From Ancylomarina subtilis (lineage in GTDB: Bacteria > Bacteroidota > Bacteroidia > Bacteroidales > Marinifilaceae), in assembly GCF_004217115.1 (NCBI RefSeq), contig NZ_SHKN01000001.1:2483781-2547780 (forward strand): a stretch of DNA of 64,000 bases. Direction: 5' to 3'. Numbering within the stretch: position 1 is the first letter of the stretch; every line of letters starts with the position of its first letter. The translations under genes and the position numbers were made by a program. Positions 3,851 through 64,000 of this stretch are shown here, piece after piece. The notes under the pieces were generated by a model. It saw only the letters and a list, made by a program, of their open reading frames with translations, was not told the origin of the DNA and made no database searches.

Positions 3851-5290
3851 TTATTCTGTTACTTTAATATCGTCTAAACGGTAAGTAGTGGTCTCAGTCT
3901 TACTACCTGTATATTTAAATGCTATGGATATGTGCTTACCCGCAATAACTGGCAAAGCAACATTGCCTGAAGATATCCAGGTATGATCTCCGTCCGTTTT
4001 TTGAGCAATGGTTACATCTAGAGTTTGCCAATTGGCCGTTTTATAATTGCTACCATCAAAATCATCAGCATAAAGAATCTCTAAAGGCTGATTGTCACCC
4101 AAGTGTTCCCAATAAGCTTTAGCTGTTTTTAAGGATAACTGCTTCTGAACAGAAACACTTACTGCCGGGGATATTAACCATGAGATAATTTCTTCATCAT
4201 TTGATTTGTAACCTGAAGCTTGAGCATACACATCAGTATTATAAACTTTTGATATCCAATCACGAGTTCCTTTTTCCTTAATACTATGCCATCCTGTTAG
4301 TCCAATAGAGGCATTATCGGTTAAATTAGAAAAATCTACATCGAAATTATCAACTTGAGTTAGTGTGCCTGAATATTCTCCACTATTCGTTCCAAATCTG
4401 TCTCCAGTCAATTGAACATCATCCAATCTATTAATAACAAATTGCGGCTCTCCATTGTGATAACTTAACACTCCGGTCACACTACCGCTTCCTTCCGGCG
4501 TAATCAAGTGAGCAAATTTCGAATAATTACTTGTAAACAAAGGCAAATTATTTCCATTTGCATCGTTTAATTCGATTGTTGTTTTAAATGGAAATGCAGC
4601 ATTGTGTTCAGGACCAATGACACCCCAAGTTTCTCCGGGATTATTCAGTTGAACATTATTAACGGTAACTAATGTAAATTTATAGTTACTATTGCTTTTT
4701 AACTCAGCTATAGTTCTCACTGCTGGAGTCATTGCAACAGGATACTTGTCTTTAAAAATATGAGCATCAATTGATGGTGATGGAATAGGAGCTAATCTGT
4801 ATTCCTTAAATTTTTCCTGATCTCTATACTTATAAAAATAGAAAGAGCCTCCCAATTGAACTTCATTACCATATTTTCCAAGCGTCAACCCCTTACACTT
4901 TACAAATATCTTTTGTCCTTGAGCAAAACTTGTAAATAACGATGACTCACCTACAGAAATATTGATTCCTTGTGAATTTCCTTCAAGATCACCTTGAATC
5001 ACAATATTCTTATAGAAATTCCCTTCTTTATCATCAGAGATGACATAACCAGAAATGTAAACATCTTCTTCAACAGTAAGAAATTCATCTGCTTTAAGAT
5101 ACTTTCCTGTAGAAGGAATTGCATTGGTATAAATAGATTTTAGATCCGCAATAGAGATTAAGCTTGCTTCAGCAGGTATCTCAAATGTTGGTTCTACTAT
5201 TGTTGGTTCCGCATAATCGTCGTCAATACAGCTGTTCAGAAACAGCAACCCCATTAGCGCTACGATTATAGATAATGATATATTTTTCAT
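3851..5290 (-). CDS. DUF5689 domain surface lipoprotein
   Basis: The product has 479 residues and a lipoprotein signal ending LLFLNSC at residue 21. Residues of about 45-300 carry the DUF5689 pattern: SIADLKSIY, VYISGYVISDD, NFYKNIVIQGD, GSGSVTGVLSYH and LDDVQLTGDRFG. The remaining 160 residues (VDNFDVDFSNL, ISWLISPAVSVS, YRLDDIKVTE) resemble choice-of-anchor-J or DUF5017-type beta-sandwich modules. It sits directly after the TonB-dependent receptor with only 26 bp between them, the position that a SusD-like partner lipoprotein usually takes. It is therefore probably the ligand-binding lipoprotein of this receptor. That pairing is inferred from position; the ligand is unknown, with nucleic acid favoured by the nuclease neighbours. 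Confidence 0.82.
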   Translation of the reverse strand: MKNISLSIIVALMGLLFLNSCIDDDYAEPTIVEPTFEIPAEASLISIADLKSIYTNAIPSTGKYLKADEFLTVEEDVYISGYVISDDKEGNFYKNIVIQGDLEGNSQGINISVGESSLFTSFAQGQKIFVKCKGLTLGKYGNEVQLGGSFYFYKYRDQEKFKEYRLAPIPSPSIDAHIFKDKYPVAMTPAVRTIAELKSNSNYKFTLVTVNNVQLNNPGETWGVIGPEHNAAFPFKTTIELNDANGNNLPLFTSNYSKFAHLITPEGSGSVTGVLSYHNGEPQFVINRLDDVQLTGDRFGTNSGEYSGTLTQVDNFDVDFSNLTDNASIGLTGWHSIKEKGTRDWISKVYNTDVYAQASGYKSNDEEIISWLISPAVSVSVQKQLSLKTAKAYWEHLGDNQPLEILYADDFDGSNYKTANWQTLDVTIAQKTDGDHTWISSGNVALPVIAGKHISIAFKYTGSKTETTTYRLDDIKVTE

Positions 5291-36423: not shown

Positions 36424-36536
36424 TGATATAAAACTTATATATTAATTATTATCAACTCACAATGTTGGTTTTCTTTTGTTGATCAATCGATTTATTTCTA
36501 ACTTCATGTTTGCTTTAATCTAAACACAAAAGCAAT

Positions 36537-37220
36537 ATGGTAACGACTCATATTCCCTTAGAGTTTGAATCCTATTATCATGTATATAATAGAGGTATCA
36601 ACCGATGTGATTTATTTCAAGAGTCAAAGGACTACAAGCATTTCTTAAGGTTGTACGAGAAGTATATTGAGCCTATTGCAGATACTTTTGCTTGGGTCTT
36701 GATGCCTAATCATTTTCATTTGTTGATTAGAATAAAGTCTGAGAAGGAAATTGGGGTTTATAAAAATTTAAACTCTGAAGGGGCTAAAGACTCCGTCAGG
36801 TTTCAAACCGAACCAGATGGAAACCTATCAGAGTCCGAAGGACCTGATAGAGTTGGTATTAAAAAGCCAAATCCTACCAAACACTTTTCACACCTTTTCA
36901 ATGCTTACGCAAAATATATTAACAAAAAATATCAGCGAACAGGCTCTCTATTTGAACATCCTTTCAGAAGAAAACAGATAGATGATGAAACTTATCTTAT
37001 GACATTAGTGCTATACATCCACAACAACCCCATTCATCATGGTTTTACTGATATGGCACTAGACTATCCATGGAGTAGCTATCTGAGCTGTTTATCAGAC
37101 AAACCAACAAGGCTATTAAAGAACGAAGTTGTTGGTTGGTTCGACGAAATAACGAATTTTAAGTTCATGCATCAGCAGCATATCGACTTTATGAAACTGG
37201 AAGAATGGTTAGAGATCTAA
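36537..37220 (+). CDS. RAYT (REP-associated tyrosine transposase)
   Basis: The 227-residue Y1/HUH transposase has the metal-binding MPNHFHLLI (HFH at 59-61) and the catalytic tyrosine in LYIHNNP (Tyr 160), with the C-terminal WSSY element typical of RAYTs. It cuts and joins single-stranded DNA at short palindromes. Residues of about 79-108 (NSEGAKDSVRFQTEPDGNLS onward) interrupt the usual core and are encoded by a copy of the same repeat that lies downstream at 37238, inserted in frame. The repeats around it (AAACCTGACA/TGTCAGGTTT) are presumably its cognate sites. It is the first gene after a 113-bp gap; the frame is intact. Confidence 0.92.
   Translation: MVTTHIPLEFESYYHVYNRGINRCDLFQESKDYKHFLRLYEKYIEPIADTFAWVLMPNHFHLLIRIKSEKEIGVYKNLNSEGAKDSVRFQTEPDGNLSESEGPDRVGIKKPNPTKHFSHLFNAYAKYINKKYQRTGSLFEHPFRRKQIDDETYLMTLVLYIHNNPIHHGFTDMALDYPWSSYLSCLSDKPTRLLKNEVVGWFDEITNFKFMHQQHIDFMKLEEWLEI
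36771..36808 (+). repeat. REP copy inside the RAYT coding sequence
   Basis: This 38-bp segment (AACTCTGAAGGGGCTAAAGA onward, ending TTTCAAAC) matches 37238-37275 at 36 of 38 positions without gaps. It begins exactly at codon 79 of the RAYT gene and keeps the frame open. Confidence 0.9.
36825..36850 (+). repeat. Hairpin within the RAYT coding sequence
   Basis: CTATCAG-a-GTCC, loop gaa, GGAC-CTGATAG forms an 11-bp stem with one bulge. It follows the in-frame REP copy and is probably part of the same inserted repeat unit. Confidence 0.7.
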
Positions 37221-37357: not shown

Positions 37358-38350
37358 TTACTTCTTCAATCTCTCGTTTAGTTTTTTGATGATTTGCTTA
37401 GCATCTCCAACAATACCCAAGTCAGCTACCTGAAAAATGGGTGCGTGCTTGTCTTTGTTTACTGCGATAATCAAATCGGAATCTTCCATACCTGCAACGT
37501 GCTGAATGGCTCCTGAGATACCGAATGCAAAATAAAGGTCCGGACGTACCGTTTTACCCGTCTGTCCTACCTGACGTTCGTGTCCGATATAACCCGCATC
37601 AACCATAGCACGAGAAGCTGAAACTTCAGCATCAAGTGTTTTAGCCAACGAATCCATGGCTTCGAAACCTTCCTGGTTACCAATACCACGACCTCCTGAA
37701 ACCAGAATACGTGCTTCAGTAATATCAATTAGATCGGTTTCTTCCTTAACGGTTTTAACCAATTTCACCTTAATCTTAGAGGCATCGAAATTCACCTTAT
37801 AGTCAGTAATAACACCTTCGCGAGCAGCGTCAGCATCCATTGCAAACAATACACCCGGACGAACGGTTCCCATTTGTGGACGGTGATTTTTACAAACGAT
37901 AGTTGCCATTAAATTACCACCAAAAGCCGGACGTGTCATCAACAACTCACGGTTCGCTCCCACTTCAATCTTAGTACAGTCAGCTGTTAAACCCGTTTTA
38001 ACACGAGCCGAAACACGAGGTCCCAGGTCACGACCAATAGTCGTAGCTCCGATCAATACTGAATCTGGTTTTCTATCATTAATGATTTGGCAAATAGCCT
38101 GAGCATAAGGTTCAGTGGTATAATCTGCCAATTCCGGCGCATCAACAACCAAAACCTCGTCAGCACCAGCAGCAATCAATCCTTGTGCTTTATCGGCAAT
38201 ATTATGCCCTAAAAGCATCGCATAAACCTTATCGTTTAATTCATCTGCCAATCGTCGTGCTTGTCCCAAAAGTTCCAATGCCACATTCTGAACAAGGCCT
38301 TCGCGCTGCTCAATAAAAACATATATGCCTTTGTAATCTTCTAAATTCAT
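37358..38350 (-). CDS. etfA: Electron transfer flavoprotein alpha subunit
   Basis: The 330-residue subunit binds FAD through its C-terminal domain: GRGIGNQEGFEAMDSLAKTL, AVSASRAMVDAGYIGHERQVGQTGKTVRPD (segments of it) and GISGAIQHVAGMEDSDLIIAVNKD. Its N-terminal half has the AMLLGHN and IGATTIGRDLGPRVSARVKTGL features. With EtfB it carries electrons from or to acyl-CoA dehydrogenase, here crotonyl-CoA reduction in lysine fermentation. It lies 12 bp after etfB, last in bcd-etfB-etfA, and is convergent with the RAYT. Confidence 0.97.
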   Translation of the reverse strand: MNLEDYKGIYVFIEQREGLVQNVALELLGQARRLADELNDKVYAMLLGHNIADKAQGLIAAGADEVLVVDAPELADYTTEPYAQAICQIINDRKPDSVLIGATTIGRDLGPRVSARVKTGLTADCTKIEVGANRELLMTRPAFGGNLMATIVCKNHRPQMGTVRPGVLFAMDADAAREGVITDYKVNFDASKIKVKLVKTVKEETDLIDITEARILVSGGRGIGNQEGFEAMDSLAKTLDAEVSASRAMVDAGYIGHERQVGQTGKTVRPDLYFAFGISGAIQHVAGMEDSDLIIAVNKDKHAPIFQVADLGIVGDAKQIIKKLNERLKK

Positions 38351-38362
38351 AGTCTCAACGAT

Positions 38363-61927: not shown

Positions 61928-62115
61928 TATTTTTTTGAAATTTTAACCATTCCATCTAAATCACTCAATATAAAAGGACTAATCAAACCAATAACAAGCA
62001 TCTCAATTTCTAAATAGGATCGATAGAAATGGTAAACTCACAATTTCAAAACCGATCTCAATTTGGTATTACAAGCAAGTCCATTACTTTTGAGGGATTC
62101 AAACAATTATATTTT

Positions 62116-62727
62116 ATGCGATTTGTTGGCGTACCACAATTTTTAAAAAGACTTTTCTCCCGTCTCATTTGGGACTACAATACAGGAGAGAAAATTGTTT
62201 ACATCACCTTTGATGATGGGCCTATTCCAGAGTCCACACCCTGGACCCTAAAGCTTCTTAGCGATAAGAATGTAAAAGCGACTTTCTTTTGCGTAGGCGA
62301 TAATGTGAGAAAATATCCGGAAATTTATCAGCAGATTTTGAAGGAGGGTCATGCCGTTGGTAATCACACCCACAATCACTTAAGAGGTTTTACAAATCAA
62401 ACGCAAAGCTATGTCAATAATGTAAGACTGGCGAGTCAATATATCAATTCCGAACTCTTTCGCCCTCCTTATGGCATGATTAAACGCTCCCAAGCCAAAC
62501 AACTTTTAAAGAATTATAAAATCGTCATGTGGGATGTTCTGAGTCAGGATTATCGACAAGATATCAGCCCTGAGTCATGCTACAAAGCGGTATTAAAAAA
62601 CATCAAGCCTGGTTCCATTATTCTTTTCCACAACCATGTGAAATCTGAGAAAAATATGCGTTATGCCTTGCCTCGCTTGATTGATGAACTAAGAAACAGA
62701 GGCTTTGAATTTGGGGTTTGTAAATAA
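62116..62727 (+). CDS. Polysaccharide deacetylase (NodB homology) family protein
   Basis: The start at 62116 (MRFVGVPQFLKRLFSRLIWD) gives 203 residues and matches short family members; an ATG at 62029 adds 29 residues of unlike composition. The NodB motifs are present: VYITFDDGPIPESTPW (catalytic base and metal Asp), GNHTHNHLRGF (metal His pair), FRPPYGMIKR, and MWDVLSQDYRQDI, with ILFHNHVKSEKNM near the end. It removes acetyl groups from a polysaccharide or peptidoglycan. No signal peptide is seen, so location is uncertain. It is monocistronic and ends at a terminator. Confidence 0.9.
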   Translation: MRFVGVPQFLKRLFSRLIWDYNTGEKIVYITFDDGPIPESTPWTLKLLSDKNVKATFFCVGDNVRKYPEIYQQILKEGHAVGNHTHNHLRGFTNQTQSYVNNVRLASQYINSELFRPPYGMIKRSQAKQLLKNYKIVMWDVLSQDYRQDISPESCYKAVLKNIKPGSIILFHNHVKSEKNMRYALPRLIDELRNRGFEFGVCK

Positions 62728-62766
62728 AAAAAAGAGCAGAACCCAATTAAGATTCTGCTCTTCTTA
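62728..62766 (+). terminator. Terminator of the deacetylase gene
   Basis: AAGAGCAGAA (62732-62741) pairs with TTCTGCTCTT (62753-62762), a perfect 10-bp stem right after the stop codon, with T-rich sequence after it. Confidence 0.85.
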
Positions 62767-62784
62767 TATTTATCTCAACGAGAT

Positions 62785-62928
62785 CTAATTCTCTGTCGTC
62801 TCTCCTCCAAATTCCATCAAGTAAGCTTTGATAGAAGCATCCAAATCGCCATCTAAAACAGCCTGTACATTTGAGGTTTCGTGGCCTGTACGCACATCTT
62901 TTAGCTTTTGTAAGTTTTTATCTGATGA
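62785..62928 (-). pseudogene. prfB: Displaced C-terminal fragment of prfB
   Basis: The minus strand encodes 47 codons ending at TAG (62787-62785) that include [37 protein letters not shown] and ETTEN, a clear match to the C-terminus of peptide chain release factor 2. In front of it are only the codons SSDKN and then an in-frame stop, inside palindromic repeat sequence, so it lacks the rest of the gene. A second prfB C-terminus begins at the window edge (63972-64000). This fragment is therefore a relic left by the RAYT element or its repeats; it is unlikely to be translated. Confidence 0.85.
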
Positions 62929-63122
62929 TTAAATAGGCGTAAAGAATATTCATCAGATAATTTATCTCAACAGTAAATCAATTTATCTGATGATTTTCAG
63001 GATGTAGACTATTCTTTGGATAAAATTAATGTCTCCCAAAGCTGCAGTTCAGATTTATCTGATTCATGAATGTTCATCAGATAATTTACATCGACCGTAA
63101 ACGAATTTATCCGATAAATTTT
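62918..63122. repeat. Tandem palindromic repeats left of the second RAYT
   Basis: TTATCTGATG (62918-62927) faces CATCAGATAA (62951-62960), which also faces TTATCTGATG (62983-62992). The unit at 62944-62998 is repeated in similar form at 63068-63122 (both start GAATxTTCATCAGATAATTT). AATTTATC-C-GATAAATT at 63104-63120 is a perfect 17-bp palindrome. Confidence 0.85.
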
Positions 63123-63170
63123 CATCTTCTAAACGATTTATCGGATAAATAGACTCGGTTAATCCTTCTT
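63105..63170. repeat. Left 66-bp direct repeat flanking the second RAYT
   Basis: This segment aligns without gaps with 63918-63983, about 56 of 66 positions identical by eye. It contains two ATTTATC-N-GATAAAT palindromes and ends TCGGTTAATCCTTCTT, which corresponds to the last codons and stop of prfB. Confidence 0.85.
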
Positions 63171-63243
63171 AATTTTTCAAATCATAATCTTTTCTTAAGT
63201 CAAGAATTAAACTTATCTTCCTGTTAAACTTAAACATTAAGAT

Positions 63244-63831
63244 ATGGATTTTGAAAGTGGACATATCTATCATATCCTCAACCAAGGAAATAACAGAAGG
63301 AAAATTTTCTTTAAAAGAGATAACTACCTCTATTTTATTAAGAAAATAAGAACACACATTCTCCCATATGCAGATATTATTGCATGGTGTTTAATGCCTA
63401 ACCATTTTCATTTAATGGTGCACGTCAATAACACAGAGATTACTGTTAATCCCAACACTGGAAATGAAAAATTAAGAAGTATCAACAGCTCTATAGCCAT
63501 AATGCTTCATTCATATACAAGAGCTATTAATAAAGTTGAAAATACATCCGGTTCTCTTTTTAGAGCAAGAACAAAAGCTTATTGTTTGGATAAAATTGAA
63601 TCTGCAGATCACGTCTGGTATTCTGATAATGGTATAAGCATGATAAATACAGATCACTCGACAAGATATCATCTGCAAACCTGCTTTAATTATATTCACA
63701 ATAATCCAAGTGCAGCGAAATTGGTAGAGTGTAATACCGATTGGGAGTTTTCTTCTGCAATTGACTATGCCGACAGACGAAATGGTAATCTGGTGAATAA
63801 AGACATTGCTATAAAGCTAGGGCTAATATAA
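63244..63831 (+). CDS. RAYT (REP-associated tyrosine transposase), second copy
   Basis: The 195-residue Y1/HUH transposase has LNQGNNRRKIFFKRDNYLYF, the metal-binding MPNHFHLMV (HFH at 54-56) and the catalytic Tyr 150 in FNYIHNNPSA. The frame is intact, so it is probably active. It differs strongly from the RAYT at 36537 and lies among a different palindrome family (ATTTATCnGATAAAT and TTATCTGATGA). Direct repeats of 66 bp lie on either side, and prfB 3'-end sequences lie outside them. Confidence 0.9.
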   Translation: MDFESGHIYHILNQGNNRRKIFFKRDNYLYFIKKIRTHILPYADIIAWCLMPNHFHLMVHVNNTEITVNPNTGNEKLRSINSSIAIMLHSYTRAINKVENTSGSLFRARTKAYCLDKIESADHVWYSDNGISMINTDHSTRYHLQTCFNYIHNNPSAAKLVECNTDWEFSSAIDYADRRNGNLVNKDIAIKLGLI

Positions 63832-63836
63832 TTGAG

Positions 63837-63884
63837 AGTTATCTGATGAATTGTTTTTTAAGTCTATTAATTCATCTGATAACT
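63837..63884. repeat. Palindrome downstream of the second RAYT
   Basis: AGTTATCTGATGAATT (63837-63852) and AATTCATCTGATAACT (63869-63884) are 16-bp arms with one mismatch. They start 6 bp after the RAYT stop and may act as transposition site and terminator. Confidence 0.8.
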
Positions 63885-63917
63885 TTTATTTCTCAATATC
63901 AATATACTCTAATCTAG

Positions 63918-63983
63918 ATTTATCCGATAAATTCTCATATTGTAAAAAATTTATCAGATAAATGAATTCGGTTAATCCTCCTT
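63918..63983. repeat. Right 66-bp direct repeat flanking the second RAYT
   Basis: It holds ATTTATC-C-GATAAAT (63918-63932), ATTTATC-A-GATAAAT (63949-63963) and the stop plus last codons of the prfB copy at the window edge. It matches 63105-63170. Confidence 0.85.
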
Positions 63984-64000
63984 GTTCTCGCCTCCAAATT
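63972..64000 (-). CDS. prfB: C-terminal end of prfB, partial (gene continues outside window)
   Basis: On the minus strand the last nine codons FGGENKED plus TAA (63974-63972) are visible before the window ends. The sequence matches the FGG segment of the displaced fragment at 62785-62928, which ends FGGETTEN. It is most likely the 3' end of a complete prfB gene encoding release factor 2, which recognises UGA and UAA stop codons, but the body of the gene cannot be seen. Confidence 0.6.

Follow-up and report, generated by a model that had tools for sequence, protein, structure and literature searches.

The locus described here lies at the end of the analysed stretch of Ancylomarina subtilis DNA, 64,000 nt long and referred to below as the window. 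It comprises the 3' end of prfB, a RAYT gene with palindrome pairs around it, and a second, displaced prfB 3' end, which we call the remnant (Table 1). The genome under study is designated G000, and the other four available genomes of the genus, which make five in all, are G001-G004.

The first-pass annotation had placed the RAYT between two ungapped 66-bp repeats that each hold two palindromes and the last prfB codons. Both points hold. The repeats align without gaps at 85% identity (about 56 of 66 positions), and each contains a REPIN-like pair together with a match, recognized by eye, to the last prfB codons. The left copy is the start of a second REP unit, which has no RAYT. The two gene ends had also been read correctly: the prfB C-terminus FGGENKED stands at the window edge (stop codon at 63972-63974), and FGGETTEN closes a displaced open frame of 47 codons that ends at 62785. 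Between the two prfB ends the insert is about 1.2 kb long, and the RAYT is its sole frame of more than 62 aa.

Table 1. Features of the prfB-RAYT locus in window coordinates
Feature	Position	Strand	Remarks
RAYT gene	63244-63831	+	195 aa; NHFH (HUH) and YIHNNP motifs
66-nt repeat, right copy	63918-63983	none	REPIN-like pair and last prfB codons
66-nt repeat, left copy	63105-63170	none	REPIN-like pair and match to last prfB codons
REPIN-like palindrome pair	63920-63961 (G000:C1:2547700-2547741)		pair-pattern search
REPIN-like palindrome pair	63839-63882 (G000:C1:2547619-2547662)		pair-pattern search
REPIN-like palindrome pair	63107-63148 (G000:C1:2546887-2546928)		pair-pattern search
REPIN-like palindrome pair	62918-62960 (G000:C1:2546698-2546740)		5 nt from displaced-prfB junction
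Intact prfB 3' end (...FGGENKED*)	63972-64000	-	gene runs past window (L006 3753 upward)
Displaced prfB 3' end, the remnant (...FGGETTEN*)	62785-62912	-	
Terminator hairpin found behind prfB in relatives, displaced with the remnant	62729-62765		

The RAYT protein is homologous to Y1/HUH transposases, with scores that stay below the curated cut-offs: 22 bits against Pfam Y1_Tnp (cut-off 23; E 1.9e-4) and 47.2 bits against NCBIfam REP_Tyr_transpos (cut-off 80; E 2e-12). The match to the PDB entry 4er8 of TnpA-REP is weak (E 0.0018 over 27 residues). Residues H54, H56 and Y150 are invariant in 41 aligned sequences, Y150 being presumably the catalytic tyrosine according to the family motif. The RAYT gene is intact and, with a dN/dS of about 0.12 between G000 and G003, looks to be under purifying selection. 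Its family suggests that the protein is most likely an ordinary transposase of the REP-associated type, with its own REP sequences as the substrate. The identification of the element as an IS200/IS605 insertion sequence was rejected: G000 holds five RAYT-like matches and no near-identical copies, the next best match having 47% identity. This second RAYT (L002 1229-3041; G000:C1 near 652601) lies amid at least seven repeats of about 150 nt that belong to a different repeat family, and six of them follow the gene with a spacing of about 130 nt.

The REPIN-like pairs have the form TTATCNGATRA-N-TYATCNGATAA with 20-22 nt between the palindromes. It had been proposed earlier to look for the same repeats elsewhere, and an exact count does find them: 31 pairs in G003, five in G000, four in G004, three in G002 and none in G001. 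The reversed pattern, used as a control, gave 0 pairs in each of the five genomes. Since five matches in G000 stand against 0 for the control, the repeats and palindromes are not a product of chance. Four of the G000 pairs are at the prfB locus and the remaining one is at a site common to G002; REP palindromes thus flank the RAYT and are present at another place in the genome as well. In G003 the pairs are scattered; in G000 nearly all of them are at the prfB locus. Single palindromes (eight in G000, four at the locus and four elsewhere; 15 in G003; 5-7 in the other genus genomes) are less telling than pairs, because their controls in the genus gave 0-3.

A RAYT-like match of some kind is present in 37 of the 96 genomes searched, G000 included. 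The full-length version of the prfB-locus RAYT was found among these 96 genomes only in G000 and G003 (87% aa identity), and the next full-length match, in G022, has 59%. A 22-residue match of 86% lies at a contig end in G081. Among named relatives (the best 80 of 534, a set that may leave out the window's own genome) the identity is at most 57%. In G003 the orthologous RAYT immediately follows prfB and lies amid REP units and decayed pieces of RAYT genes; no prfB remnant is found near it in the 7 kb read. Beyond this RAYT are two more REP units (G003:C96:43300-43770; L175 about 4300-4770), one of them with degraded RAYT pieces, which suggests tandem growth and decay of the REPtron.

A REPtron is a RAYT/TnpA-REP gene flanked by its own REP/REPIN sequences, as defined in NCBIfam NF047646 and in the pertinent parts of PMC6006769 and PMC3116915; the former paper also describes a Bacteroidetes subclass of RAYTs with atypical structures. 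Our element resembles a REPtron in its HUH and tyrosine protein, its flanking palindrome pairs, the dispersed pairs of G003 and its patchy distribution. It differs in the NCBIfam score below the cut-off, in the AT-rich TTATCNGATRA palindromes at the prfB locus and in its position directly on the prfB end with a displaced remnant. Overall, the element is an ordinary, if divergent, RAYT/REPtron whose junction is unusual and informative.

The whole genome shows prfB running on past position 64000, with 349 codons in an open frame. Ahead of these, in another frame, stand an ATG and a short open stretch that closes with CTTTGA, which we take to be the usual prfB frameshift layout. The gene is intact, and the broken prfB that had been named as speaking against a rebuilt gene end is not what the genome contains. 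Homology of the remnant to prfB starts at about 62912, and the remnant is thus about 128 nt long; near its start a 1-nt deletion was seen by eye. The flanks match with a blastn E of 2e-34, and in an alignment of 130 positions the remnant shares 83% identity with the working tail. The native prfB terminator hairpin is still attached to the remnant, and a similar hairpin was recognized by eye directly behind prfB in G001, G002 and G004.

Of 96 nt, 13 differ between the remnant and the intact tail. A comparison over 97 nt gives the remnant four sites in common with G001 alone and none with any other sequence alone, the intact tail included. The remnant is therefore not a drifted duplicate of the tail, and by this comparison the remnant and the working prfB tail are different alleles. 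The remnant is closest to G001 (94% of 96 nt, dS 0.29, versus dS 0.77 to the sister genome G002). Such an affinity is unlike that of a plain resident allele, which should be nearest to the sister G002.

The core of the G000 prfB is G002-like (92.3% nucleotide identity over 870 sites, compared with 83-85% for the other genus genomes). This affinity is lost in the tail, where 117 nt contain 18 differences to G002 and 11 to G003. From the core to the last 34 codons, dS rises from 0.42 to 0.80 for G000-G002 and falls from 1.20 to 0.34 for G000-G003, G003 being the nearest genome in the tail; for G000-G001 the values are 1.05 and 1.14. If the last 39 codons are taken instead, the tail dS is 0.93 for G002 and 0.59 for G003, with core values of 0.42 and 1.08. 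The low G000-G003 tail value is partly general, because tail dS is below core dS in eight of the ten genus pairs, the exceptions being G000-G001 and G000-G002. The rise of G000-G002 dS in the tail was seen in 93% of bootstraps. A paired test of the tail being nearer to G003 than to G002 gave 0.0535, and the Fisher test on exclusive sites of the G000 tail gave 0.068.

Maximum chi-square analysis of G002 versus G003 affinity classed 111 of 138 informative sites as G002-like before positions 2342-2351 and three of 13 after them. For an alternative break at 2381-2390 the counts are 112 of 140 and two of 11; in the same coordinates, homology of the remnant begins at 2371. The observed value was reached in 0 of 2000 shuffles, and p was 0.001 when the test was repeated to position 2490. 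A control with 30 triplets weakened the exact placing of this switch: eight triplets had p < 0.05 and four had p <= 0.001, all four with the G000-G002 pair, and the breaks of these four ranged from 2150-2159 to 2342-2351. No switch was seen from the side of G003 (G003 versus G000/G002, p = 0.52). Judging from these alignments, prfB is mosaic in the genus; because of this, and because no switch is seen from the side of G003, a changed G002 tail is an alternative. The affinity of prfB changes near the remnant start, at an exact place that is uncertain, and we are moderately confident of the breakpoint and of the donor identity.

The RAYT is nearer to G003 than the neighbouring genes are. Its G000-G003 dS is 0.59, versus 1.01 for prfB, 2.56 for pda and 1.66 for tetR, and the share of bootstraps in which the RAYT dS equalled or exceeded that of prfB was 0.0105. 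The pda gene, located behind the remnant, is nearest to G002 (dS 0.89), with G001 saturated.

Displaced gene ends were then sought at other RAYT loci and at prfB in other genomes. The RAYT survey started from 114 loci, of which 15 were too short and were left out; the remaining 99 are distinct and have 300 nt or more on either side. In 75 of these the best segment reaches an identity of 45% or more to the query. The flank test detects only repeats with blastn E up to 1e-4, and thus old or short remnants could be missed. Close flanking direct repeats are present at 50 of the 99 loci. Besides the prfB locus (L007), eleven loci were flagged with a repeat overlapping a frame of at least 110 codons; inspected by eye, their repeats proved to be REP-like palindromes or repeat sequences, and none of the eleven has a displaced gene end. 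The idea that RAYTs habitually target gene ends was therefore rejected, the prfB locus being the only one of the 99 whose flanking repeat is a real gene end.

The prfB survey, in which prfB was the sole gene, found a match in 270 of 295 genomes of the order and in 379 of 395 genomes of the class; 12 genomes, including G000, are in both draws. Across both surveys displaced prfB ends were seen in two genomes only, G000 and G282, and prfB is probably not a general hot spot. A second prfB match in G117 was discarded: it is on another contig, 67% identical, with a frame cut by the contig start, and is not an end next to prfB. G282 belongs to another family of the order. Its displaced end (G282:C17, L179 1700-3320) consists of 147 nt, 98% identical, and a 20-nt piece. 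The 1311 nt between the two ends contain one frame of about 326 codons, of a secreted type by eye, and no RAYT-like frame. Since G282 shows the arrangement with other cargo, it can arise without a RAYT. The same arrangement in relatives lacking the RAYT had been named as evidence against the first-pass annotation; it does exist in G282, but its cargo is unrelated, so it is a separate event. G051 and G186, from the family of G282, have one prfB end each in the stretch read, with other sequence behind it. Among the open-licence literature matches listed, none linked prfB with RAYT, REPIN or REP and none on integration sites named prfB, while those for release factor 2 with Bacteroidetes and insertion site looked unrelated by their titles and the starts of their abstracts.

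We consider it fairly probable that G003-like DNA, made up of a prfB tail and a REPtron, joined the chromosome via the prfB 3' end, probably by a single crossover of a circle, to give a chimeric but complete prfB. The donor piece, from a relative of G003, would comprise the final ~110 nt of prfB and the REPtron located behind that gene, with its RAYT and REPIN-like pairs. An ancestor of G000 would have taken it up and integrated it at the 3' end of prfB, with general recombination rather than the RAYT as the agent. The most economical route would be for the donor fragment, circularised and with its prfB arm trimmed, to recombine with the resident prfB in a single crossover. The product would start with the resident prfB core and the donor tail, which form a complete chimeric gene, and continue with the REPtron; last would come what is left of the trimmed donor arm, running directly into the 3' end of the resident prfB with its terminator. 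Homology-facilitated illegitimate recombination would be a close variant. One crossover would explain at once why prfB is intact, why there is a remnant, why the tail switches and how the RAYT arrived. A single crossover is also expected to swap alleles on both sides; the tail fits a G003-like donor, and the remnant fits G001 rather than G002.

Similar products are known from E. coli conjugation. The passages of PMC3240628 on this subject report unexpected duplications of the lacZ end in 56 of 60 clones by PCR, 109-950 bp long in the 14 sequenced clones, and explain them by a single crossover with a circle that lacked part of the homologous arm; homology-facilitated illegitimate recombination is given there for the other four of the 60 clones. 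As in this Campbell-type insertion with a trimmed arm, the foreign DNA in our case is bounded by a partial duplication of a gene end, which comprises ~128 nt in G000 and 147 nt plus the 20-nt piece in G282. Unlike the laboratory clones, the G000 case is natural, concerns different species and prfB, and its crossover and circle are what we infer from the end product.

The idea that an element entered the 3' end of a gene and rebuilt it survives in part. Foreign DNA apparently entered the prfB end, gave the gene a new end and left a remnant, as the different alleles and the change of affinity indicate. That rebuilding gene ends is a property of RAYT elements is not supported, given the single case in 99 loci and the G003 copy without a remnant in the 7 kb read. 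The rebuilt gene end holds for the prfB locus, and the credit for it most likely belongs to recombination and not to the element. The locus seems to have arisen by accident, in the ordinary exchange of DNA among related bacteria, and does not look like a new kind of mobile element.

An opposite history, in which the RAYT is old and resident and the remnant with its terminator came from a RAYT-less G001-like donor through one homologous and one illegitimate event into the REP array, is rather unlikely. It would account for the closeness of the remnant to G001 and for the four exclusive sites. The REP family may moreover be old in the genus, as REPIN-like pairs occur in G002 and G004, neither of which has the RAYT of the prfB locus. 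However, the lost G002 affinity of the prfB tail and the low RAYT dS to G003 would be left without explanation, pda behind the remnant is nearest to G002, and just one G000 pair lies away from the locus.

That the RAYT itself moved the block seems quite improbable. The enzyme would have cut at the REP feet, carried the REPtron and the prfB tail as a single-strand circle and re-inserted it at prfB, with the gene end as a landing pad that rebuilds the target. Such a circle is possible, given that a REPIN-like pair has its foot just 5 nt away from the remnant junction, but nothing else calls for one. The 66-nt repeats hold the last prfB codons, so that the unit boundaries reach into prfB, and the RAYT is intact and looks to be under purifying selection; yet the duplicated end is unique among the 99 two-flanked RAYT loci, is absent from the 7 kb read around the G003 copy and recurs in G282 without a RAYT. 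Nor is there an inverted or direct repeat around the prfB-side switch (L006 3780-3960).

A further alternative, in which the prfB end was duplicated locally in tandem, by target duplication or slippage, with the RAYT enclosed and the copies diverging later, has little chance of being right and is already disfavoured. In its favour are the prfB end on either side of the RAYT, the tandem REP units at the G000 locus and in G003, and the 98% identical copies in G282, which could be a recent duplication. Against it, the remnant has the G001 state at the four exclusive sites instead of random differences, and the sequence next to it is the native terminator and not a REP. It is very improbable that REPtrons can spread between species with the 3' end of the essential gene behind which they are located, RAYT cleavage at a REP foot closing the circle and the end acting as a homologous landing pad that rebuilds the gene, which, if true, would mean a domesticated transposase with a host-gene-guided, non-disruptive transfer route.

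An integrase island was also rejected: with the RAYT as the sole frame above 62 aa between the prfB ends, the ~1.2 kb insert carries no tyrosine or serine integrase gene. The att core of integrase islands is short and identical, in contrast to the 83% identical duplicated stretch at prfB. The likeness is in the target gene rebuilt by the insert and in the displaced original fragment on its far side; islands that regenerate the end of their target gene are treated in the corresponding parts of PMC4383910 (tRNA genes, Islander) and PMC8409611 (the trmE 3' end).

With recombination into the prfB end as the preferred reading, the locus suggests a route of acquisition, namely hitch-hiking on homologous recombination in the essential gene next door, after which the gene end of the receiver remains as a scar. 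Because G282 has the same kind of prfB scar with other cargo, gene-end remnants could mark acquisitions that need no integrase.

The interval between prfB and the polysaccharide deacetylase gene (window 62029-64000; L006, L175-L178) is different in each of the five genus genomes. It has no frame listed in G004, a 656-codon frame in G002, two smaller frames in G001, the RAYT array and two frames in G003, and the RAYT and the remnant in G000. Elsewhere in the window (36519-37217 and 37361-38362), and likewise in L038 (146-2086), a RAYT and an etfA-like gene, so named by eye, converge at the 3' end of the latter. Two different RAYT genes thus adjoin this gene end in two genera (G000 and G022), as if it were a favoured spot.
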